In this document: positions 1 through 36,003 of the stretch, piece by piece | How the letters are laid out: each line of letters begins with the position of its first letter | Numbering within the stretch: the stretch's first letter is position 1 | Assembly: GCA_017540265.1 (NCBI GenBank) | Contig: JAFYBJ010000028.1 | Location: 1-40,259, forward strand | From: Lachnospiraceae bacterium | GTDB lineage: Bacteria > Bacillota > Clostridia > Lachnospirales > Lachnospiraceae | Reading direction: 5' to 3' | Length of the DNA stretch: 40,259 nt | Position numbers and translations under genes: made by a program | The notes under the pieces: generated by a model | Seen by the model: only the letters and a program-made list of their open reading frames with translations | Told to the model about the DNA's origin: nothing | The model's database searches: none

Positions 1-233
1 CAAAGACGGTCACCCTCAGCGTAAAGACTTCACCTGCGCTTAATAAGTCTGATATAAAGGCGGTATGGTCTGTGGCTAATGAAGGGAACGGCGTGAAGAA
101 GATAAGCGATGAGAACGGAAAGGCTGTATTTGAAGTTTCAGCAGCAACGAAGGATACCGTTGTAACAGCTACTGTAACGGATCCCGTCACCGGAAGAACC
201 TATACGGTCAACAGCGTGATAGATGTAAACTAA
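1..233 (+). CDS. C-terminal end of a secreted protein with a bacterial Ig-like domain (5' truncated)
   Basis: An open frame enters from the left edge (first full codon at position 3) and ends in TAA at 231-233, giving 76 residues. The pattern of alternating beta strands (KTVTLSV, KAVWSVAN, GKAVFEVS, TVVTATVTD, YTVNSVIDV) is that of a Big_2-type bacterial Ig-like repeat, usually found in surface or secreted clostridial proteins. There is no sortase motif or hydrophobic tail at the C terminus, so anchoring must be elsewhere or absent. The rest of the gene lies outside the window, so its overall function is unknown. A strong terminator follows directly. Confidence 0.7.
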   Translation, partial: KTVTLSVKTSPALNKSDIKAVWSVANEGNGVKKISDENGKAVFEVSAATKDTVVTATVTDPVTGRTYTVNSVIDVN

Positions 234-258
234 ACTGACAGACTGATACTCTGTCCTG

Positions 259-287
259 AAAAGCCCCGGCACCGCCGGGGCTTTTGT
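259..287 (+). terminator. Rho-independent terminator
   Basis: The GC-rich stem AAAAGCCCCGGC / GCCGGGGCTTTT has a three-base loop and ends in T residues. It sits 26 nt after the stop codon of the Ig-like gene and would end that transcript. Confidence 0.9.
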
Positions 288-376
288 TATCGCAGGGGCG
301 GCGACATGTCTTGAGAAGTCCATTTCCCGTTTCGCCCGCAACACGCATATGTCGGACGGTGAGTTTTTCTGTGGTT

Positions 377-536
377 TTGTGGTATAACAGGGACGTTATG
401 CGCAAAAAGCAAGCGCTTTTGCCCGCCATGGATGGCGGGCAGCGTAGCGTTTGTGGTATAACAGGGACGTTATGCACAAAAAGCAAGCGCTTTTGCCCGC
501 CATGGATGGCGGGCAGCGTAGCGTTTGTGGTATAAT
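377..536 (+). repeat. 74-bp tandem repeat (two copies plus a 12-bp partial third) with REP-like hairpins
   Basis: Copies at 377-450 and 451-524 differ at a single base (402 versus 476). A third partial copy starts at 525 and runs into the aguB promoter. Each unit carries TGGTATAAC (a near -10 element), the small stem AAAAGC/GCTTTT, and a strong hairpin GCCCGCCA-TGGA-TGGCGGGC (421-440 and 495-514), further extendable by CGCT/AGCG. The hairpin resembles REP-type intergenic palindromes. The coding potential across it looks spurious. Whether the unit is dispersed in the genome cannot be seen here. Confidence 0.85.
528..536 (+). promoter_or_regulatory. Extended -10 promoter of the amidase gene
   Basis: TGGTATAAT is a perfect extended -10 with no recognisable -35. 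It lies only 8 nt before the ATG at 545, so a transcript from it would be leaderless or nearly so. It forms the junction with the partial third repeat copy, where TATAAC in the full repeats becomes TATAAT. Confidence 0.6.
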
Positions 537-544
537 GTCTCACC

Positions 545-1441
545 ATGAGAAAGATTACTGTATCCGCATGCCAGATGAGCATGTGCAATGATGTTGATGA
601 AAATATAAAAAAGGCGTCCGGGCTGGCTGAGAAGGCAGCAGAGGATGGAGCAAATATCATACTCCTCCCCGAACTCTTTGAGACTCCTTATTTCTGCCAG
701 GAGAGAAAATACGGACATTACGGGCTGGCGCATACGGTGGATGAGGATCCTGCTGTCAGGCATTTTAAAAAGCTGGCGGCAAAGCTTCATGCAGTCATAC
801 CCGTGAGCTTTTATGAAAAGGCAGGAACCGTGCTCTATAATTCACTGGCCATTATAGATGCGGACGGCGAGCTTCTTGGGGTATACAGGAAGACGCACAT
901 CCCCGATGATCACTTTTATCAGGAAAAATTTTACTTCACACCGGGAGATACCGGTTTTAAGGTGTGGGATACCGCTTTTGGGAAAATAGGAGCGGGCATA
1001 TGCTGGGATCAGTGGTTTCCGGAAAGCGCCAGGTGCATGGCTCTCAAGGGAGCGGAGGTACTGCTTTATCCCACGGCAATAGGTTCCGAGCCGGTGCTTG
1101 AGACGGATTCCATGCCACACTGGAGGCGGTGCATGCAGGGACATGCGGCAGCAAATCTCATGCCTCTTGCGGCGGCAAACCGCATTGGTACCGAAACCAT
1201 TACGGCATCTGACGATAATAACATGCAGTCTTCATCCCTTGTTTTTTACGGTTCATCCTTTATATGCGATCATACAGGTGAAATAAAAGCGTCTGCAGAC
1301 AGAGATTCCGATATGGTGATAAGTTCGCAGTTCGATCTGGATGAGCTTTATGAATTTCGCATGAGCTGGGGAGTTTTCAGGGATCGCAGGCCTGAGATGT
1401 ATGGCGTGCTTTCCGGAAAAAAGACTGATACGGAGGCATAG
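545..1441 (+). CDS. aguB: Nitrilase-superfamily amidase, N-carbamoylputrescine amidase-like
   Basis: The 298-aa protein has the complete nitrilase-superfamily triad: Glu43 in LPELFETPYF, Lys116 in YRKTHIPD and Cys153 in GICWDQWFPE. These motif contexts and the length match N-carbamoylputrescine amidohydrolases, which release putrescine, CO2 and ammonia in the agmatine route to polyamines. Agmatine deiminase and other agu genes are not in the window, so the substrate rests on family resemblance only; another omega-amidase or carbamoyl-amide substrate is possible. The ATG at 545 has no Shine-Dalgarno sequence and lies just after an extended -10, suggesting leaderless expression. trkA starts 9 nt downstream and may be cotranscribed. 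Confidence 0.75.
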   Translation: MRKITVSACQMSMCNDVDENIKKASGLAEKAAEDGANIILLPELFETPYFCQERKYGHYGLAHTVDEDPAVRHFKKLAAKLHAVIPVSFYEKAGTVLYNSLAIIDADGELLGVYRKTHIPDDHFYQEKFYFTPGDTGFKVWDTAFGKIGAGICWDQWFPESARCMALKGAEVLLYPTAIGSEPVLETDSMPHWRRCMQGHAAANLMPLAAANRIGTETITASDDNNMQSSSLVFYGSSFICDHTGEIKASADRDSDMVISSQFDLDELYEFRMSWGVFRDRRPEMYGVLSGKKTDTEA

Positions 1442-1450
1442 TATAAACAG

Positions 1451-2806
1451 ATGAAGATAGTGATAGCAGGCTGCGGAAAGTTAGGCTTTGCACTTGCGAA
1501 ACAGCTTTCGGCAGAGGAACATGATGTAACTGTTATAGATCTCAGTACGGAGAAGCTTGGACGTACACTGGCAGTCCTTGATATACAGGGCATAGCGGGT
1601 AATGCCACATCCTTCAAGACACAGAAGGAAGCGGGGGTTCCGGATGCGGATCTGATGATAGCCGTTACGGGTGCCGATGAAGTAAATCTTCTTTGCTGTC
1701 TTATAGCGGGACGCACAGGCGTAAGGAAGACCATTGCCAGGGTGAGAAATCCTGTATATAACGATGAAGTGGGCTTTCTTTCGGGACAGTTGGGTATTTC
1801 GGTGGCAATAAATCCCGAGCTTGCATGCGCAAGGAATATGGCCAGGCTTTTAGAGGTCCCTGCAGCCCTTGAGATCACATCATTTGCCAGGGGCCGAGTG
1901 GATCTTTTGAAGCTTTCGCTTCCTGCGGACACGCCTCTTGACGGACTTACGGTAATGGATTTTGCAAAACAGGGACGTAAGGGAACTCTTATTTCGGCGT
2001 TGTCAAGAAACGGTGAGGTCATCATCCCTGACGGCCGTACGAAGATACAGGCCGGCGATGATATGTATGTGATAACACCTCCTGCGCAGATCCATAAGCT
2101 TTTAGCTTCTGCGGGAATAGTTTCAAAACCGGTGAGGAACGTGATAATAGCCGGCGGCGGGACTACGGCATATTATCTTGCAAAGCGTCTTGAACGTGAC
2201 CAGATAGATGTAAAGATAATCGAGATGGATAAGAAGCGTGCAGAGGAATTAAGCGATCTGCTTCCGGAATGCATAATAATCAACGGTGACGCCTCCGACA
2301 GGCAGCTTCTCATGGAAGAGGGGCTCTTAAATTCCGACGGTCTTGTGAGCCTTACAAATCTTGACGAGGAAAATATGGTGCTTTCCATGTTTGCAAATAA
2401 AGTGGGACATGCAAAGACCATCACAAAGCTTAATCATATTTCTTTTGATGAGGTGGTTTCGGATCTGCCCTTGGGCTCCATAGTATCACCGAAGGATGCC
2501 ATAGCGAAAATGATACTCCAGTATGTACGTGCCATGCAGAATACCTTCGGAAGCAATGTGGAGACTCTTACCAGGATACTTGATGATAAGGCGGAGGTGC
2601 TGGAATTTGCCATAAGGCAGAAGTCGGAAGTTACCGACAAACCTCTTATGGAGCTTTCCTTAAAGAAGGGGCTTTTAGTCTGTGCTATAGTAAGGGAGGG
2701 GAAGGTGATAACTCCCGGAGGCCGCGACGATATGAGAGTGGGAGACAATGTTGTGATAATGACGACCATAAAAGGTCTGAATGATATAAAGGATATACTG
2801 GCATGA
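1451..2806 (+). CDS. trkA: Trk system K+ uptake regulatory subunit TrkA
   Basis: This 451-aa cytosolic protein has two tandem RCK units, each an NAD-binding Rossmann half followed by an RCK_C half. The first glycine motif is GCGKLG (residues 7-12) and the second GGGTTA (about 235-240); RCK_C regions fall near 140-220 and 370-450. TrkA of this double form gates the TrkH/KtrB K+ translocator in response to nucleotides. The gene overlaps trkH by 4 nt (ATGA), so the two are translationally coupled. GGAGG at 1433-1437, inside the end of the upstream gene, is a slightly distant ribosome-binding site. Confidence 0.93.
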   Translation: MKIVIAGCGKLGFALAKQLSAEEHDVTVIDLSTEKLGRTLAVLDIQGIAGNATSFKTQKEAGVPDADLMIAVTGADEVNLLCCLIAGRTGVRKTIARVRNPVYNDEVGFLSGQLGISVAINPELACARNMARLLEVPAALEITSFARGRVDLLKLSLPADTPLDGLTVMDFAKQGRKGTLISALSRNGEVIIPDGRTKIQAGDDMYVITPPAQIHKLLASAGIVSKPVRNVIIAGGGTTAYYLAKRLERDQIDVKIIEMDKKRAEELSDLLPECIIINGDASDRQLLMEEGLLNSDGLVSLTNLDEENMVLSMFANKVGHAKTITKLNHISFDEVVSDLPLGSIVSPKDAIAKMILQYVRAMQNTFGSNVETLTRILDDKAEVLEFAIRQKSEVTDKPLMELSLKKGLLVCAIVREGKVITPGGRDDMRVGDNVVIMTTIKGLNDIKDILA

Positions 2807-4245
2807 ATTACGGGATCATCCGGTATGTGCTGGCAAGAGTGATACAGATAGTGGGTGCCATGATGGTGGCCCCTTTTGCCGTGTCCTTCATATACGGGGA
2901 GAAGGAAGGTATATATTATCTTGCCTGCGCTGCGGGTGCGCTGCTGACCGGAGGGGCGCTTGCCGTTAAGAAACCGGAAAAAAAGGATTTTTATGCAAAG
3001 GAAGGTTTTGTAGTCACTGCGGCTTCCTGGATACTGCTCTCGGTGATAGGGGCACTTCCTCTTTATTTTTCCGGTGAGATGGCATCATTTACGGATGCTC
3101 TTTTTGAGACTGTTTCGGGTTTTACCACAACAGGTGCTTCCGTGGTGCCTGCAGTGGAAGATCTTTCCAGATCAGCAAATTTCTGGAGATGTTTCATACA
3201 GCTTATCGGAGGTATGGGAGTTCTTGTATTTCTGCTTGCGATGCTTCCCATGACCGGCGGTCAGGATATATACATTATGAAAGCCGAATCACCGGGGCCG
3301 GATGTAGGCAAGCTGGTGCCAAGGGTCCGCAGAACGGCTTATTATCTGTATGCCATATATTTTCTCCTTACGACGGTGCTTTTCTTTGCGCTGCTTATAG
3401 CGGGGATGCCTTTATATGATGCCATATGCACTGCTTTCACCACCACCAGCACAGGCGGTTTCGGTATAAAGAATGATTCCCTCGGAGGTTATGCTCCGGA
3501 AGTGCAGTATGTGGTGGCGGGCTTTCTTTTCCTTGCGGGCATAAATTATAATTTTTACTTTTACATTTTCAGGAAGAGGATAAAGGATGCATTTTCATCC
3601 GAAGAAGTAAGGCTGTATGCGTTTATCTTTTTTGCATCGGTGTTTTTCATAGCCATAGTGCTCATAAACGGAAAAGTATGCGGGACAGAGCCTGCATTCA
3701 GACATGCTTTTTTCCAGGTGGGTTCTATCATGACTACCGCCGGATTTTCTTCCATCGATTATAATGACTGGCCGGCTGCGGCAAGGGAAGTGATCATTTT
3801 CCTTATGCTGCTTGGAGGATGTGCCGGAAGCACCAGCGGCGGAATAAAGGTGAGCCGTCTCATCATATACGTAAAGATACTCGGCAGGGAGCTTATGGAG
3901 CTCTGTCATCCCAGGGCGGTGAAGACTATACGTATGGACGGCGCCAGGGTAAACAACGAAGTGGTCAAATCCGCGGTATCCTTTATCATCGCCTATGCTT
4001 TTATATTTGTGATCTCCGTACTGCTTGTAAGTATGGACGGAAAGGATTTTACAACGAATTTTACAGCTGTGGCTTCGGGGCTTGGAAATATAGGTCCCGG
4101 ATTCTCGTTAGTGGGACCGGCTGAGAATTTCGCACATTTTTCGATGCTCTCAAAATATGTGATCATGTTTGATATGATAGCCGGCCGTCTGGAGATATTC
4201 CCGCTTCTTGTTCTTCTTGCTCCCGCTACATGGAGGAGAAAGTAA
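2803..4245 (+). CDS. trkH: Trk/Ktr-type K+ transporter membrane subunit TrkH
   Basis: The 480-aa integral membrane protein has many hydrophobic segments and the four-fold loop pattern of the SKT family. Filter-like segments include SGFTTTGAS, TTTSTGGFG, MTTAGFSS and SGLGNIGPGFS, with GGCAGSTSGGIKVSR after the third. It forms the K+ conducting pore gated by TrkA, encoded immediately upstream with a 4-nt overlap. Length and topology are typical. No terminator is evident; the next gene has its own promoter. Confidence 0.93.
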   Translation: MNYGIIRYVLARVIQIVGAMMVAPFAVSFIYGEKEGIYYLACAAGALLTGGALAVKKPEKKDFYAKEGFVVTAASWILLSVIGALPLYFSGEMASFTDALFETVSGFTTTGASVVPAVEDLSRSANFWRCFIQLIGGMGVLVFLLAMLPMTGGQDIYIMKAESPGPDVGKLVPRVRRTAYYLYAIYFLLTTVLFFALLIAGMPLYDAICTAFTTTSTGGFGIKNDSLGGYAPEVQYVVAGFLFLAGINYNFYFYIFRKRIKDAFSSEEVRLYAFIFFASVFFIAIVLINGKVCGTEPAFRHAFFQVGSIMTTAGFSSIDYNDWPAAAREVIIFLMLLGGCAGSTSGGIKVSRLIIYVKILGRELMELCHPRAVKTIRMDGARVNNEVVKSAVSFIIAYAFIFVISVLLVSMDGKDFTTNFTAVASGLGNIGPGFSLVGPAENFAHFSMLSKYVIMFDMIAGRLEIFPLLVLLAPATWRRK

Positions 4246-4319: not shown

Positions 4320-5552
4320 ATGTTAGCTGCACTGATCCCTCTTTTTGACCACAATATGAAAGTTTGTGCATATTCCATATTTGCACAAAAGGAGAATTTC
4401 CTTTTAAATCCGAGGCTTTTGGGTGTCGGACGTTTTGACGGCGCGTCAAATATCGAAGGAATGAAGATAGTGGAGAGCATGGGGCTCGATACGGTATCGG
4501 ATGAAAAGACCGTATTCATAGAGCTCAATAATATCTCTCTTTTTTCGGATATTGCGGGGCAGTGTGATGCTCCTCATGACAAGCAGGTTCTGCTGATCGA
4601 CAAGGATATACCGCCTGAGCGGAGATATATCGACAGGATCATCGAACTCAAGAAGGAAGGCTACCGGTTTGGTATCAGGAAGCTCCCGGTGAGCCAGTTT
4701 GAAGCTTACAGGGAGATACTCAAGGAAACAGATTATGTTTTCCTCAATCACAAGAAGATAGATATAACCAAGGCGAAGGTTTATTTCTCAAGGATGTACC
4801 CCAATGTTAAGCTTGTAGCCGTGAATGTGAATTCCAAGGAAGATTTCGACATTCTTAAGGAAGGCGGCGGATATGATCTTTATGAGGGTGAATTCTTCAG
4901 GACTCCCGTGAAGACAAGCGGAGAGGAGCTTGCTCCTTTAAAGGTCAATTACCTTGAGCTTTTAAATATCGTAAATGATATAGATTTTGATCTGGCGGAT
5001 GCTGCCGATGTTATAGGCAGGGATCCGGCGCTTGTTATCTCCCTTCTTGAGATGGTAAACCGTATGACGGTAAATTCCGGCATTACTTCGGTCCGTCATG
5101 CTGCAGCTATGTTGGGTCAGAGGGAACTTAAAAAGTGGATAAATACGGCAGTTACCAGGGAGCTTTGTGCGGATAAGCCCAGTGAGATCATGCGCACATC
5201 CCTTATAAGGGCACGTTTTGCGGAGAATCTTGCGCCGGTATTCGAAATGGCGGGACTTTCCTCCGAGCTTTTCCTTATGGGTCTTTTCTCGGTGCTGGAT
5301 GTCATATTGGACAAGCCCATGCCCGAGGCGCTGGAAATGGTAAAGGTATCAAAAGAGATAAGGCAGGCTCTGTTGGATAAGAGCGGACCTTTTTCCCAGG
5401 CGCTGGATTTCATGATGCAATATGAGAATGCCTCCTGGCAGGAAGTTTCCAGACAGATGGTTGTGGCAGGCATAGATGAAAATACAATCTACAATGCATA
5501 TGTGGATGCCCTCAGATGGTTTAAGGAACTCTTTGAGATCAGGACAAGATAA
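4320..5552 (+). CDS. YuxH-like EAL/HDOD-domain signalling protein with degenerate EAL
   Basis: The 410-aa protein matches the YuxH-type architecture. An N-terminal EAL-like half (about 1-205) keeps the fold pattern, for example VLLIDKDIPPERRYIDRI and a terminal GGYDLYEGEFF, the position of the usual G-x-QG-x-x-F signature. It lacks the catalytic EAL motif and acidic metal ligands, so it should not hydrolyse c-di-GMP. The C-terminal half (about 205-395) is an HDOD domain (LNIVNDIDFDLADAADVIGR, then SLLEMVNR). Such proteins are thought to act as signalling adaptors; the target here is unknown. It stands alone between its own promoter and a terminator. Confidence 0.8.
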   Translation: MLAALIPLFDHNMKVCAYSIFAQKENFLLNPRLLGVGRFDGASNIEGMKIVESMGLDTVSDEKTVFIELNNISLFSDIAGQCDAPHDKQVLLIDKDIPPERRYIDRIIELKKEGYRFGIRKLPVSQFEAYREILKETDYVFLNHKKIDITKAKVYFSRMYPNVKLVAVNVNSKEDFDILKEGGGYDLYEGEFFRTPVKTSGEELAPLKVNYLELLNIVNDIDFDLADAADVIGRDPALVISLLEMVNRMTVNSGITSVRHAAAMLGQRELKKWINTAVTRELCADKPSEIMRTSLIRARFAENLAPVFEMAGLSSELFLMGLFSVLDVILDKPMPEALEMVKVSKEIRQALLDKSGPFSQALDFMMQYENASWQEVSRQMVVAGIDENTIYNAYVDALRWFKELFEIRTR

Positions 5553-5579
5553 AGGGCAAAAGAAGAATATGATAATAAT

Positions 5580-5605
5580 AAAGCCGGCCGTAAAAGCCGG
5601 CTTTT
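5580..5605 (+). terminator. Rho-independent terminator
   Basis: The stem AAAGCCGGC / GCCGGCTTT is followed by T residues. It lies 28 nt after the HDOD gene and 15 nt before the ATG of the next gene, so that gene either reads through it or starts within this short gap. Confidence 0.85.
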
Positions 5606-5619
5606 CAGAAGTTTGATTC

Positions 5620-6576
5620 ATGAAAAAGATCATCTGGGCGTCTTACGCGGCGCGTCGTTTCCTTAAGAAAAAACTTCATATAAAGAGAAAGCCCGGCTCA
5701 CCATACGGGGGCAGGCGCTTTACGTCTGATGAAGAGGCGGCAAAAGAGCTTGCGGGGCTTATAAAGAGCGGGAAGCCGTTTATGGCCGGACGTCTCGGAC
5801 TTTTTGAAACGGCTGTCATGAGGATGTATGAATTCGGTATAAAAAAGAAATATGCCCTTACGATGGATAATCTTTATAATTGCGCAGGTTTCTTTCCAAA
5901 GGACATAAGCCTTGGCGGAAGGTTTACGGAGCTTATGAAAGACGGACTGGGGCAGACGGATATTCTTGCCTGCAACCTGGAGTTTCTTGAGGATTATTTT
6001 GTTAAGACCTGTCTGCCGAAGGAGAGCGTTATCACAAAAAAATTCACGCTTTATGAAAATCATAAGCTGGATACACACTGGAGCGCGGCCCTTGAAGGAA
6101 AGAAAGTCCTTGTGGTAACTCCATTTTCCGATTCGGTAAAGCAGCAGTATGAAAAAAGGGAACTGCTTTATAAGGGCTCTGATATACTTCCGGAATTTGA
6201 GCTTTTGACATATAAGAGCCTTATGACGGTGGGTGATCTTAAGGATGATCGTTTTGAAAACTGGTTTGAAGCCCTTGAATTTATGGAAAAAGAGATCGCT
6301 TCCATTGATTTTGATATAGCCCTTCTCGGTTGCGGAGCCTATGGCTTTGCGCTTGCTGCGGCGATAAAAAGATCCGGAAGGCAGGCCGTGCATATGGGTG
6401 GCGTACTTCAGCTGCTCTTCGGTATAATGGGAAGACGCTGGGACGGTTCCAGATTCGGCGGAGCAGAAAAGATGGAAGCTTCGCTTAAGAAATACTACAA
6501 TGAGGCATGGACATATCCCATCGAAGGCAAGCCGGCGGAGGCTTCCGGGGTGGAATACGGACCGTATTGGAAATGA
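5620..6576 (+). CDS. GT-D fold-like putative glycosyltransferase
   Basis: A 318-aa soluble protein with a basic N terminus. It resembles the GT-D (DUF1792-like) fold proteins of polysaccharide loci: an R-x-G-x-x-E element near residues 58-63 (RLGLFE), a KKVLVVTPF strand at 161-169, and a C-terminal block at about 232-275 with LLGCGAYGFALAAAIKRSG followed by HMGGVLQLLFGI and GRRWD. That block is the most conserved part of the family as I know it. The donor and acceptor sugars cannot be inferred. It overlaps the following channel gene by 4 nt, an unexpected partnership. The family call comes from motif memory only. Confidence 0.6.
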   Translation: MKKIIWASYAARRFLKKKLHIKRKPGSPYGGRRFTSDEEAAKELAGLIKSGKPFMAGRLGLFETAVMRMYEFGIKKKYALTMDNLYNCAGFFPKDISLGGRFTELMKDGLGQTDILACNLEFLEDYFVKTCLPKESVITKKFTLYENHKLDTHWSAALEGKKVLVVTPFSDSVKQQYEKRELLYKGSDILPEFELLTYKSLMTVGDLKDDRFENWFEALEFMEKEIASIDFDIALLGCGAYGFALAAAIKRSGRQAVHMGGVLQLLFGIMGRRWDGSRFGGAEKMEASLKKYYNEAWTYPIEGKPAEASGVEYGPYWK

Positions 6577-7826
6577 CGATGCCGGATAAGAAAACAGAAG
6601 AAAAAAAGAATAAAAAAGCGAAGATACGCGGAGCCTGGAGTTTTGAAAGCCCGAAGCATGCTTCCTTCAGGGCTTCCGTATTTAATATGGTCGAAGTGGG
6701 CTACGATGAGGATATCATCGGCAGGGGCTATGATGTATTCAGTCTTTTGGTGATAGCGGTCAATCTCCTGATATCCGTGCTCATCACATTTGATGATATA
6801 GTGCTTAAATACGGAGAGCTGCTTTCGGTTTGTGAAGGACTGACGGTATTGTTTTTTGCCATTGATTATGTGCTTCGTCTGTGGACTTCGTCATTTTTAT
6901 ATCCCGCAAAGAAGCCGGCGGCTGCGATGCTTGGATATATCTTTTCATTAAACGGTATAGTGGATATCCTTTCATTCCTGCCGTATTATCTTCCTGTATT
7001 TTTCCCGCAGGGAGCTGTTGCTTTCAGGCTTTTCAGGCTGATGAGGATATTCAGACTCTTCAGGGTAAATGCGTATTATGATTCGCTGAATGTCATAACA
7101 GAGGTTTTAAAGAGCAAGGCAAAGCAGCTTATATCTTCGGTATTTGTGATCTTTTTACTGATACTTGCATCAAGTCTTTGCATGTACAGTGTGGAGCATG
7201 AGGCGCAGCCGGAAGTATTTGACAATGCTCTTTCGGGAATATGGTGGGCTTCTGCGACACTGCTTACCGTGGGGTACGGTGATATTTATCCCATAACGCC
7301 TTTAGGAAGGGTGCTTGGCACACTTATAACCTTTCTGGGTGTGGGAGCTGCCGCTATACCTACAGGTATCATTTCTGCCGGTTTTGTGGAGCAGTATTCC
7401 AGGCTCCAGGGAATGGCAGGGGAAAATACCGCACTGCAGATCATAAAACTTAAGCTTTCGGGGAAAGACGGCTGGGAAGGGAAACGGATAGCTGATATAA
7501 GTTTCCCCGGAGGGATGATAGTTGCGGCGGTGCTGCACGCCGGAGAAGTAAAGGTTCCAAGGGGAGATCTGGTCTTGTCTGAGGGGGATGTGCTGGTTCT
7601 TGGCGCGGAACCCTGTGATGAGGGCGTGGATATATATCTCACTGAAGTGACGGTTGAAAAAGGGCATGAGTGGGAAGGTGTAAAGATAAAGGATCTTGAT
7701 ATATCACGTCAGACCTTTATCATTACGGTTAAGAGGAAAAAGAAGGCTATGGTTCCCAATGGTTCATTTGTCATCAGGGCCGGAGATACTGTAGTGATGT
7801 ACACAAAAGGAAAAAGAAAACAATGA
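6573..7826 (+). CDS. Voltage-gated-like K+ channel with two RCK_C (TrkA_C) domains
   Basis: With the start at 6573 (ATGA overlap with the upstream stop) the protein has 417 residues; an in-frame reading further upstream would only overlap the previous gene. It has six transmembrane segments, an S4-like helix with regularly spaced arginines (about 152-164, FRLFRLMRIFRLFR), and the K+ selectivity filter TVGYGD at 232-237. The C terminus (about 285-417) holds two RCK_C-type ligand-binding modules, each a GDVLVLG or GDTVVMY-like unit, but no Rossmann RCK_N. The N terminus is highly charged (KKTEEKKNKKAK). It is distinct from the TrkAH system upstream. Confidence 0.85.
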   Translation: MTMPDKKTEEKKNKKAKIRGAWSFESPKHASFRASVFNMVEVGYDEDIIGRGYDVFSLLVIAVNLLISVLITFDDIVLKYGELLSVCEGLTVLFFAIDYVLRLWTSSFLYPAKKPAAAMLGYIFSLNGIVDILSFLPYYLPVFFPQGAVAFRLFRLMRIFRLFRVNAYYDSLNVITEVLKSKAKQLISSVFVIFLLILASSLCMYSVEHEAQPEVFDNALSGIWWASATLLTVGYGDIYPITPLGRVLGTLITFLGVGAAAIPTGIISAGFVEQYSRLQGMAGENTALQIIKLKLSGKDGWEGKRIADISFPGGMIVAAVLHAGEVKVPRGDLVLSEGDVLVLGAEPCDEGVDIYLTEVTVEKGHEWEGVKIKDLDISRQTFIITVKRKKKAMVPNGSFVIRAGDTVVMYTKGKRKQ

Positions 7827-32650: not shown

Positions 32651-33703
32651 TCACTGAATCTTTTTAATATTGAATCCGGCTGCCTTGGAAAGTCTGTTCA
32701 TCACAGCCTGTCCGAAGCCTTTATCCGGAAAACTCTCTGAATATATCATGTCGATCCCTGCACTGTCAAACTCTCTGAGGACGCGGTAAAGTGATCTGGC
32801 GATGGAGGCCTCGTCATTACGGCTTCCCACACTTAATACCAGATCGGCTTTTATACTGTCTTTTATTTCATCCGTGCATAATATGCCGCATTTGAGGCCG
32901 TTTTCTGCGGCGGCAGCAGCTTCCTTATTCATCATTTCGATCACTTTACCGGTGTCTCCCTCTATAAGCATCATCTGTGCCTTAGGAGCGTAATGCCTGT
33001 ATTTCATACCGGGCGCCTTAGGCGGCCGTTTATCCGTGCCCTCTATAAGTGTTACATCAGTATCTACCTTTCCAAGCACTCTTTCAAGCATTTCGGACGT
33101 GATATACCCGGGCCTTAGTATCACCGGTGTTTTTTCCGTAAGGTCGACTATCGTTGATTCAACGCCTATGCCTACTTCTCCACCGTCTATTATCATATCT
33201 ATCTTTCCGGAAAGATCTTCATATACGTGGGATGCAAGTGTGGGGCTGGGACGTCCCGAAGCATTTGCGCTTGGTGCTGCTATATAACCGCCTGCAGCCC
33301 TGATGAAGGAAAGGGCGGTATTGTGATCCGGCATGCGTACAGCTACGGTATCAAGACCGCCGGTGGTGGCCTTCGGAACCGATCTGCTTTTTTTTATTAT
33401 CATTGTAAGGGGACCGGGCCAGAAGACTTCCGCAAGCATATAAAGTGTATCGGGGATATCATCGCTTAAAAGCGGAAGGGCATCCAGATCAGCAATATGG
33501 ACTATGAGCGGATTGTCGGAGGGCCTGCCCTTTGCCGCATATATTTTTTGAGAGGAAGAAGGATTCAGCGCATCTCCTCCGAGACCGTATACGGTTTCTG
33601 TGGGGAAGGCCACAAGGCCGCCGGATCTTATGATATTTCCGGCTTTCTCCATAAGGGAGGGATCCGGCATTATGGCGTCTGTTGTTTCTGTCAGAGTGTT
33701 CAT
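32651..33703 (-). CDS. tsaC: L-threonylcarbamoyladenylate synthase (Sua5/YwlC type)
   Basis: From the ATG at 33703 (350 aa, AGGAGA upstream) the YrdC domain shows GGLVAFPTETVYGLGGDA, KIYAAKGRPSDNPLIVHI and the S-A-N site in APSANASGRPSPT. A linker and a C-terminal Sua5 domain (about 230-350) make it the long form. It makes the precursor for t6A37 modification of tRNAs reading ANN codons. The frame extends 28 codons upstream but only inside the previous gene. It overlaps that gene by 4 nt. Confidence 0.94.
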   Translation of the reverse strand: MNTLTETTDAIMPDPSLMEKAGNIIRSGGLVAFPTETVYGLGGDALNPSSSQKIYAAKGRPSDNPLIVHIADLDALPLLSDDIPDTLYMLAEVFWPGPLTMIIKKSRSVPKATTGGLDTVAVRMPDHNTALSFIRAAGGYIAAPSANASGRPSPTLASHVYEDLSGKIDMIIDGGEVGIGVESTIVDLTEKTPVILRPGYITSEMLERVLGKVDTDVTLIEGTDKRPPKAPGMKYRHYAPKAQMMLIEGDTGKVIEMMNKEAAAAAENGLKCGILCTDEIKDSIKADLVLSVGSRNDEASIARSLYRVLREFDSAGIDMIYSESFPDKGFGQAVMNRLSKAAGFNIKKIQ

Positions 33704-35613
33704 TTTGCAAGTATCTCCTGAAACCATGTCCAGGTATCGGCGTTTTCGAGACCTATGCGCCAGCCTCCGGCGCTGGTGATGCCGCACCCGGCAAGTACAT
33801 TAAGCTTTGCCCTCATAGACTGTTCGTCTTCGAGCCATACCCGGTATTTTGCAGTGCCGTCAGCGGATTCGCCGTAGTTCTGGCAGGCTTCCGCATCCCA
33901 GCTTAAGTTTAAACCGTTCTTTGCGGCAAAGTTTATTGCCGTATCCATACCTACTGCATCTGAATGCGTATCGTTTCCTTCTGTGCGCCATATGCGTGTG
34001 TAGAAGGGGAGTATGCTGATGATCTTTTCTGCGGGAATACCTCTGTCGATGGCTTTTTTAACACCGTCTTCTATAAAGCCCACACTGGCTACGGAACCTA
34101 CTTCGGAACCTGCCCAGTGCTCATTGTACTGCATCAGACAGATATAATCCGCACAGAGTCCCTGTTCTTTATAATTGTAGTAGATATTTCCTTCGTTCGG
34201 CGCAAAATCATCGACGGAAAGGATTATCCCGGCTTTCCTTGTTTCTATTGAAAGTTCCCTTATGAACTGAACATAATGGGGGCCGGTCTTTGAATCTATG
34301 CGCTCGATATCAAGGTTTATGCCGTCAGCGCCGCAGGCTGAGACAGACGAAAGCAGATTGTTTATAAGTGTCTGTCTGTGCGCCGAGGATGAAAAGATGG
34401 CATATTCGTCCACGTCATTTGTAAGATCCTCAAGCAGAGCCCATACCTTATAGCCTCTTTCATGGGCAGCAGTTACATATGCAGCTGAGGAATGATCCAG
34501 ATAGTTTCCTTCATTATCATTTAAGAAAAACCAGGTGGGGGATATGACGTTCATGCATGCGGTATTTATGCTTATGGCTTTTATGCTGCTGCCGTTATCC
34601 GGCATACCGAGCTGGTGAAAGCCAAGGAAGACAGATCCCATTTCCTGCCGTGCGCTCATATAATCGCTTTCGGGATCGTAAGCACCGCTTACTGCTTCTG
34701 CTGCTGTATCCGCATAGGAGGTAAGCTTGTCATTTTCAAGATATCCGATAAAGCAGTCACGGGTTTTTACCTTGGTCCAGTTTTCCATGCTCTCAAGCAC
34801 TTCAACTTTGTCTCCCGCCGAGACGGGGGTGAGCACATCACTCTTTACTCCGCCTTTATATCTTACGTAGCTGTCCTCGGAAACCTCGGCCAGTTTATCA
34901 GTTCCCCACTCGGTATAAACCTGCATGCGGTTGGGATCTTCGAAAAATTCATAGGAGAAGTTTGAGAAAAGCTTCACATAATCGGCCCAGATATATACTT
35001 TGCCGTCTTTGTCGTAAACAGCCGCAGGTTTTTCGAGACTTGTCTCCCCGGCGTTTGTTGTATAGTGATCGCTGTCATCGCCTATGGTAACCGCATAAAT
35101 GTCATCCGAGGTGGAGTAGAGCAGCTTGTTCTCATCGGTATTAAGATAGAATCTTTTTGTAAAAAGGTCATAAACGGTATCGGATGAAAAATAAACACCC
35201 CCGTTTATAAGTTTTCCTCTTGCTTCTATACGGGTATCCTGAAGTATTATGGCAATATCATCCGTGGAAAAAAGATTGAAATATTCATTCATATCCGCAT
35301 ATTGGGTGGAATAGGAATATTTTTCGGGATAAAGTATCTCAAGTATGCTGTGGAAACTGAATTTCTCCCCGCTGTCCATGACCGTTTTTATACGGCTGCC
35401 GAAGGCAACAGCAATGATAATGAATATGAGGAGCAGGGCAACAGCAAAGCTTACAAGCCTGTGGCCGAAGCTCTTTATCATGTCCATATCGGGCTCTCTC
35501 TCGGGCTCGCCCCTTCGTCTGCTCCTTCGCCTTGCGGTACTGCTGCGGCGCTTTACGGCTCCCGGCCTGCGTTTTCTGCCGTGCCTTTCCGTATTTCTTT
35601 CATCCTGCGGCAT
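33700..35613 (-). CDS. Membrane-anchored GH18-type glycoside hydrolase (YaaH/SleL-like)
   Basis: The 637-aa protein has a very Arg-rich cytoplasmic N terminus (about 10-35), one transmembrane helix (52-72) and a middle region with copper-amine-oxidase-like and SH3-like beta modules (about 100-296). A GH18 barrel covers about 325-637. The catalytic segment DGINLDIE (430-437) has Asn in place of the third Asp, as in YaaH/SleL-like enzymes, and keeps the acid Glu437. The likely substrate is peptidoglycan or another beta-1,4 GlcNAc polymer. AAGGAG precedes the ATG. First gene of the minus-strand operon, with an unusually structured leader. Confidence 0.88.
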   Translation of the reverse strand: MPQDERNTERHGRKRRPGAVKRRSSTARRRSRRRGEPEREPDMDMIKSFGHRLVSFAVALLLIFIIIAVAFGSRIKTVMDSGEKFSFHSILEILYPEKYSYSTQYADMNEYFNLFSTDDIAIILQDTRIEARGKLINGGVYFSSDTVYDLFTKRFYLNTDENKLLYSTSDDIYAVTIGDDSDHYTTNAGETSLEKPAAVYDKDGKVYIWADYVKLFSNFSYEFFEDPNRMQVYTEWGTDKLAEVSEDSYVRYKGGVKSDVLTPVSAGDKVEVLESMENWTKVKTRDCFIGYLENDKLTSYADTAAEAVSGAYDPESDYMSARQEMGSVFLGFHQLGMPDNGSSIKAISINTACMNVISPTWFFLNDNEGNYLDHSSAAYVTAAHERGYKVWALLEDLTNDVDEYAIFSSSAHRQTLINNLLSSVSACGADGINLDIERIDSKTGPHYVQFIRELSIETRKAGIILSVDDFAPNEGNIYYNYKEQGLCADYICLMQYNEHWAGSEVGSVASVGFIEDGVKKAIDRGIPAEKIISILPFYTRIWRTEGNDTHSDAVGMDTAINFAAKNGLNLSWDAEACQNYGESADGTAKYRVWLEDEQSMRAKLNVLAGCGITSAGGWRIGLENADTWTWFQEILAK

Positions 35614-35657
35614 ATAATATCTCCTTGGGGATGGTATAGTATTTAGATTTTGTGATA

Positions 35658-35696
35658 AAAATCCTCATGCAGATACATCTGCATTCGGATTTTGTA
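35658..35696. repeat. 39-bp hairpin repeat, copy 1
   Basis: AAAATCC arms and inner ATGCAGAT/ATCTGCAT arms form a near-perfect palindrome. It is identical over 39 bp to 35828-35866 and lies just upstream of the GH18 gene start. Confidence 0.92.
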
Positions 35697-35827
35697 ATCA
35701 AAAAGCGATATCCGGATTGCTTCGTTTCGTTACGAAACTCGCGCAATCCGGAAACATTCGGAATCCGCTAAACAGCCCGGTTCCGGTCTGTTTGCTGCTT
35801 CCTCATGTTTCTGCGGGTTCCAAAGTC

Positions 35828-35866
35828 AAAATCCTCATGCAGATACATCTGCATTCGGATTTTGTA
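35828..35866. repeat. 39-bp hairpin repeat, copy 2
   Basis: An exact second copy of 35658-35696, enclosed by extra arms GGGTTCCAAAG (35815-35825) and CCTTGGAACCC (35867-35877). Confidence 0.92.
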
Positions 35867-35886
35867 CCTTGGAACCCTGATATCGC

Positions 35887-35915
35887 ATTATAGCAAAACA
35901 GAAGCTTTTAGTCAC
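35887..35915 (-). promoter_or_regulatory. Promoter of the minus-strand GH18-tsaC-rpiB operon
   Basis: On the minus strand GTGACT (-35, 35910-35915) is 17 nt from TATAAT (-10, 35887-35892), with a TGC extension. This is one of the best sigma-A matches in the window. One arm of a 13-bp inverted repeat fills the spacer. Confidence 0.7.
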
Positions 35916-35995
35916 CTGTGCAGGGATCGGAGGCAATTATCCGTGAAATATCCGCTCATCCTTATGCCTGTGAAGGAAACAATAAAAGCTTCTGT
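35898..35995. repeat. 13-bp inverted repeat flanking the operon promoter
   Basis: ACAGAAGCTTTTA (35898-35910) and TAAAAGCTTCTGT (35983-35995) are exact inverted copies 72 nt apart. On the plus strand the second arm is followed by GATTTTTT, so the region could also be read as a terminated small RNA. On the minus strand the first arm lies between -35 and -10, fitting an operator pair. Confidence 0.7.
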
Positions 35996-36003
35996 GATTT
36001 TTT

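Follow-up and report, generated by a model that had tools for sequence, protein, structure and literature searches.

The GH18 leader

The window, by which we mean the whole 40,259-nucleotide stretch of Lachnospiraceae contig JAFYBJ010000028.1 that was analysed, carries on its minus strand a GH18 gene preceded by a strongly folding leader. The features of this locus are the following.

33700..35613, minus strand: GH18 gene (Pfam PF00704), a host gene downstream of the element and outside it
35653..35700, minus strand: downstream hairpin TGAT..ATCA, containing the second 39-nt copy (35658-35696)
35706..35885, minus strand: Clostridiales-1 RNA body (RF01699; cmscan, model positions 1-166 of 166)
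35706..35712, minus strand: closing stem P1, 3' strand GATATCG
35713..35750, minus strand: hairpin 3
35751..35811, minus strand: hairpin 2, whose purine-rich internal loops are conserved
35815..35877, minus strand: hairpin 1, containing the first 39-nt copy (35828-35866)
35879..35885, minus strand: closing stem P1, 5' strand CGATATC, pairing with 35712-35706; also the 5' end of the element
35887..35892, minus strand: TATAAT, probably the GH18 gene's -10 box, one base ahead of the element

The 267-nt leader (35886-35620, minus strand) has a predicted folding energy of -121.8 kcal/mol (z = -11.7), and none of 200 shuffled sequences was equally stable. An earlier note on this DNA had described a leader of about 265 nt made of four strong hairpins; the strength of the fold stands, but the hairpins are not four separate units, since hairpins 1-3 belong as arms to a single multibranch structure, the closing stem of which has 7 bp (35885-35879 with 35712-35706), and only the fourth lies apart, 3' of that structure. 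The two identical 39-nt palindromes that had been placed about 170 bp apart are indeed present, at 35658-35696 and 35828-35866, with starts 170 nt apart. The first copy, counted from the 5' end of the RNA, is the upper part of hairpin 1, while the second forms the fourth hairpin, 3' of the RNA; each pairs locally in the minimum-energy structure, which speaks against the alternative pairing that had been suggested between the two. The 28-nt core of the palindromes has no further site in the window's own genome (an assembly of 1.9 Mb, 72.9% complete) at up to three mismatches.

Upstream of the leader, GTGACT lies 17 nt ahead of TATAAT (35892-35887), the two boxes together matching 10 of 12 consensus bases. 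The boxes of the promoter previously called good are thus in place, but a scan returned three promoter-like sites against 2.9 expected by chance, and because this count does not exceed chance we regard a GH18 promoter before the element as plausible. The closest genome, G001, has TTATAAT at the corresponding place ahead of the orthologous gene, where the window has TATAATG (matched by eye). At the other end of the leader, GGATTTTT was found at 35664-35657 in the last hairpin, about 43 nt ahead of the ATG at 35613 and hence close to the 40 nt first given. It was flagged as terminator-like in a scan that gave two such sites against 0.7 expected; most of its T run, however, is taken up by pairing, as the 3' side of the A-T stem of that same hairpin, which makes it a poor intrinsic terminator.

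The leader feature is a copy of Clostridiales-1 RNA

The covariance search proposed in the earlier note identified the feature as an existing family. RF01699 (Clostridiales-1 RNA) matches 35885-35706 on the minus strand at full length with 99.2 bits, against a gathering cut-off of 48, and is the sole Rfam match over cut-off in the whole window. The minimum-energy fold of the window copy agrees with the alignment to the RF01699 model in having three hairpins and one closing stem, and the leader feature is one copy of Clostridiales-1 RNA. No known riboswitch or leader was recognised: at gathering and at permissive thresholds alike, Rfam gave RF01699 and, besides it, just sub-threshold microRNA matches.

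Clostridiales-1 was entered in a table of Weinberg et al. (2010; PMC2864571) as a likely RNA, not cis-regulatory, from Clostridiales and human gut, and Rfam classes it as 'Gene; sRNA'. The window copy resembles the Rfam family in its full-length match and its three-hairpin fold with one closing stem; it differs in that RF01699 here makes up the interior of a longer unit, which has inverted ends and target duplications and is present in tens of copies per genome. We found no description of Clostridiales-1 as mobile in those parts of the open-access literature that were consulted.

Copies lie beside unrelated genes

Homologues of the GH18 protein occur in 32 of 35 genomes of the genus. Thirty of these 32 loci were scanned with Rfam (flanks of up to 1.5 kb; G011 and G018 left out; orthologue proteins 46-65% identical), and RF01699 exceeded the cut-off at the window's own locus and at none of the 29 others. 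In G001 no element follows the TTATAAT, in an alignment made by eye to a diverged genome. Near the GH18 orthologue of G022 we also observed a match to a group II intron (L158, 3883-3947).

Within the window's own genome there are 10 RF01699 matches (E <= 0.001), some partial or overlapping, of which six are over cut-off. Eight of nine neighbouring reading frames tested have a Pfam match, and these are mutually unrelated: MatE, BadF-type ATPase, Mg-chelatase, DAHP synthase, 2-hydroxyacid dehydrogenase, Maf, prephenate dehydrogenase and NUDIX. More broadly, RF01699 was found in 20 of the 35 genus genomes (over cut-off in 19), in 161 of 299 sampled family genomes (over cut-off in 130) and in none of 14 control genomes. 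Four relatives carry 31, at least 93, at least 111 and at least 95 matches, the last three being lower bounds because only 150 candidates were scored in each of those genomes. Many copies inside one genome are near-equal in length, as after recent amplification. Among the 80 records of named genomes listed for the exact end pattern described below, 46 were titled Lachnospiraceae, and the remaining records listed were named Blautia, Lachnospira, Muricomes, Hungatella, Eubacterium, Clostridiales, other Clostridia, 'bacterium' or 'Bacillota'. In one cultured carrier, Muricomes intestini DSM 29489, two element ends face each other at a distance of 185 nt.

Orientation was counted for 81 copies in four genomes, using reading frames of at least 300 nt taken without a gene caller. 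The downstream frame was co-directional in 55 cases, opposed in 25 and absent in one; the flanks were divergent in 28, convergent in 10, '++' in 21 and '--' in 13. Copies thus favour promoter-side gaps, follow no clear orientation rule and are near-random in orientation.

These observations bear on the proposal that the leader is an unrecognised regulatory RNA of the operon, that is, a riboswitch, attenuator or alternative-pairing switch dedicated to the GH18/tsaC/rpiB cluster. Such a leader would be expected right after a plausible promoter and ahead of the gene, where the element does sit, and its very stable fold would fit; yet RF01699 is an existing Rfam family that is absent from the 29 other GH18 orthologue loci and that adjoins unrelated genes in near-random orientation, and the two 39-nt copies each fold locally at minimum energy. 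We consider a dedicated switch very improbable.

Carriage on plasmids or phages was sought by blastn of window positions 35500-36000 against plasmid and phage collections, with no match. Separately, the exact end pattern of the element occurs in two IMG/VR viral contigs (L364, 358-377; L365, 6379-6398). Two copies in the window's own genome (G000) are unusual in build. On contig C11 (L006, 1547-1565 and 1598-1616), hairpin 2 is swapped for a perfect 19-bp palindrome, and this copy continues into the 3' part of another copy, forming a chimaera; on contig C49 (L010, 1682-2100), five tandem units of about 72 nt adjoin a partial Clostridiales-1 copy.

Transposon-like ends, target duplications and empty sites

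Comparison of flanks indicated that the conserved unit exceeds the Rfam model and has inverted ends, TGAT..GGGTCAAAAGGT and ..TTTTGACCCCAACATC. The start of the unit, TGATACCAGGGTCAAAAGGT, coincides with the first base of the RNA, and the end lies about 30-33 nt 3' of the RNA, where a hairpin (GGGGTCAAAA..TTTTGACCCC) is followed by AACATC; the element accordingly has TGATRYYRGGGTCAAAAGGT as its 5' end and a hairpin plus TTTTGACCCCAACATC as its 3' end. In 34 distinct copies with both ends recognised, which were chosen by script for recognisable ends so that decayed copies are unrepresented, the element measures 183-211 nt, and perfect flanking direct repeats of at least 6 nt were found in 26 (6 nt in 15, 7 nt in 10 and 10 nt in one). 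For comparison, 2.9% of 1122 mispaired flanks had 5 nt or more in common. Both ends are present, with the duplication ATATAA, in a copy of the window's own genome (C40), and derivatives of about 60-95 nt that retain both ends occur as well. A comparison of orthologous sites, made for a single copy of G304, found this copy missing at the corresponding place in G334 and G336, where both flanks align at 80-83%.

Over 173 ends of both kinds, the target pattern is A-T-W-W-W-A and AT-rich. Insertion into -10 boxes as a rule was considered and rejected: an exact TATAAT starts 7-12 nt upstream at just 11 of the 173 ends, so that an AT-rich target suffices.

The family has terminal inverted repeats, a constant-length duplication, presence/absence between genomes for the one copy compared, and an autonomous partner with the same ends (see below), the features by which MITEs are recognised. 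Like MITEs of bacterial insertion sequences in general, the element is short, non-coding, dispersed and mainly intergenic, and it has inverted ends, duplications and ends in common with an insertion sequence of the same or related genomes. It differs from them in its interior, where, instead of just a deleted insertion sequence, there is a multibranch RNA that shows covariation and strand bias across genera. The other possibility named in the earlier note, palindromic repeats that had colonised the leader, is therefore the one borne out, by RF01699 copies beside unrelated genes, by target-site duplications and by the copy with orthologous empty sites. What had been foreseen for such a repeat, scattering at unrelated loci without conservation at GH18 orthologues, is true of the element family but not of the 39-nt letters themselves, which are unique to the window copy.

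A palindrome family of the REP/BIME type spread by a RAYT (IS200-type tyrosine) transposase shares with our element the palindromic units, the tandem arrays and the intergenic placement. IS200-type transposition is not known to leave a duplication, whereas 6-7-nt target duplications are present here, and the ends are those of a DDE-type insertion sequence; a REP/BIME origin is exceedingly unlikely.

IS1182-like insertion sequences as the likely mover

When 120 records were screened for facing element ends 0.4-5 kb apart, four pairs came up, and the pair in L292 encloses a transposase fragment. Of the other three, L273 encloses other reading frames, L312 spans 401 nt and begins like an element, and the last lies in L282. 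We also discarded G265 L118 as an autonomous candidate, as it holds two long reading frames that resemble each other and lie in inverted orientation (118-3240 and 4823-6634), with a C-terminal anchor-like tail, and not a transposon.

Insertion sequences with the element's ends and perfect duplications were found in three genomes. The one in G143 is 1850 bp long, encodes a transposase of 550 aa, has TGATGTTGGGGTCAA as its ends and is flanked by a perfect duplication of 7 nt. Its counterparts measure 1862 bp in G209 and 1865 bp in G309, where the gene contains one stop; their ends match, and both lie between perfect duplications of 6 nt. At G151 (L380) and L292 the ends are present without a perfect duplication. 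The transposase resembles the IS1182 family in its DUF772 and DDE_Tnp_1_6 domains, and IS1182 (NF033551) is its best NCBIfam match; since the score of 120.6 bits falls far below the curated cut-off of 270, we take it to be a distant or separate group and call it IS1182-like only. These insertion sequences have ends and duplication length in common with the RF01699 element, and a profile search did not find the RNA body in the insertion-sequence loci examined.

Strong transposase matches (E < 1e-20, a threshold chosen once the list had been seen, with genome tables counted by hand) occur in 16 of the 299 family genomes. Nine or more RF01699 matches were found in 10 of these 16 and in 44 of the 283 others (Fisher p 5.8e-5). 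Mere presence of RF01699 is not associated with a strong match (11 of 16 against 150 of 283, p 0.17), while for any transposase match (E <= 0.001) the counts are 24 of 34 against 137 of 265 (p 0.028). Speaking against a link, just 11 of the 161 RF01699-bearing genomes have a strong match, a transposase without RF01699 is seen in G190, G195, G209, G276 and G329, and the window's own genome (72.9% complete) gave no transposase match. From the ends and duplication length in common, we infer that the element was most likely mobilised in trans by IS1182-like transposases. Adjoining an IS1182-like gene in G071, a TnpB-like fragment was observed (L367, 613-1266; Cas12f1-like TNB and OrfB_IS605 matches).

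A conserved, strand-specific RNA fold

The modelled strand is more stable than its complement in 55 of 56 diverse copies, by a mean difference of -10.9 kcal/mol. Counted by column over four stem segments, G-U type cells number 20 against two A-C cells, with 42 further cells holding other mismatches, many of them at two columns; these are counts of cells and not of independent events. Pair-keeping changes on both sides were found in 42 of 63 pairs among 14 copies, a favourable subset picked for similar length. On all 56 copies the consensus from RNAalifold was poor, as hairpin lengths vary. The strand bias and the compensatory changes point to selection acting on a single strand, for which RNA would be the simplest carrier and single-stranded DNA a possible one. 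For the same reasons the body would not be mere junk, and a plain MITE leaves it unexplained.

Taken by themselves, the two-sided changes and the stabler sense strand (55 of 56) would suit a free-standing gene for a trans-acting sRNA, the type under which Rfam files the family, that had become multicopy by chance. Such a gene should bring its own promoter, whereas the element starts at the first base of the RNA, and upstream of the 173 ends there is only the AT-rich target pattern, with an exact TATAAT 7-12 nt upstream at 11 of them, so that probably no promoter travels with the element. The ends and target duplications, moreover, mark a transposing unit, and we find a free-standing sRNA gene quite unlikely.

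The reading that we prefer, with a probability of about 0.83, is that the RF01699 copy in the window is an IS1182-linked MITE carrying a conserved, strand-specific RNA fold. Clostridiales-1 RNA would be the body of a non-autonomous, MITE-like element that inserts at AT-rich A-T-W-W-W-A sites, leaves 6-7-nt duplications and was presumably moved in trans by IS1182-like transposases. A catalogued 'sRNA' family of unassigned role would then look like the interior of a transposon-like repeat, a new reading that accounts for the copy number and placement of RF01699 and alters the interpretation of its matches in genomes and metagenomes from the gut. It also raises the testable question of what would lead so small an element to retain a strand-specific RNA fold across distances as large as those between genera. 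Tentatively, and at somewhat less than even odds, we propose that Clostridiales-1 is a transposable element with a selected RNA, the body being kept across genera because it serves the element or spares the host, while the IS1182-like transposase moves the DNA. If so, the RNA form may shield host transcripts from the insertion or take part in its spread.

Probable history of the window copy

The element in the window starts at 35885, one base past TATAAT, and no clear target duplication is visible there. Its 3' end is rearranged: the place taken in other copies by the terminal hairpin or by a second unit is occupied here by TGAT-hairpin-ATCA (35700-35653). Among 188 distinct full bodies in the loci analysed, the copy's own hairpin 1 is repeated exactly (at least 18 nt, within 110 nt) downstream in 27 and upstream in three, and the downstream repeats are tandem second units, whole or truncated. 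As the window is one of these 27, its second 39-nt hairpin is probably what is left of a second unit lying downstream; a rearranged terminal hairpin would be the other candidate.

We thus picture an old copy that came to lie one base 3' of the probable GH18 -10 box. Since the element adjoins that box, the RNA body would make up most of the GH18 mRNA leader, although transcription of the leader, like any function of its fold, is something we infer. If the leader is the insertion of a mobile repeat beside a promoter, there is probably no dedicated GH18 switch, and the window would illustrate that even so striking a leader may come from an insertion.

Compatible with an IS1182-linked MITE is co-option of the copy after insertion, for instance as a dampener of the GH18 mRNA or a stabiliser at its 5' end. 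The outer bases of the closing stem have both changed (C-G for T-A) with pairing kept, and the element sits at the probable transcription start; a paired change is also seen in own-genome copy C11, and hence such a change need not reflect the window site. Co-option seems to us possible though rather doubtful.

A second RNA candidate upstream

A perfect 13-nt inverted repeat, with arms at 35898-35910 and 35983-35995 that lie 72 nt apart, spans the stretch immediately ahead of the GH18 -10 box. Further upstream of the GH18 promoter, 36282-36005 (minus strand) is a second RNA candidate, in which TTGCAA-17-TACAAT is followed by a stretch of about 270 nt where GGATACCTGCAT at one end pairs with ATGCAGGTATCC at the other (z = -3.4). 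No Rfam family fits this candidate, and 6S RNA was rejected, the genome's 6S-like match being on another contig. Counting its own, the candidate was found in four of 35 genomes: shorter matches occur in G027 and, elsewhere placed, in G024, and G001 has a 73% identical segment in which the end stem is changed yet still pairs.
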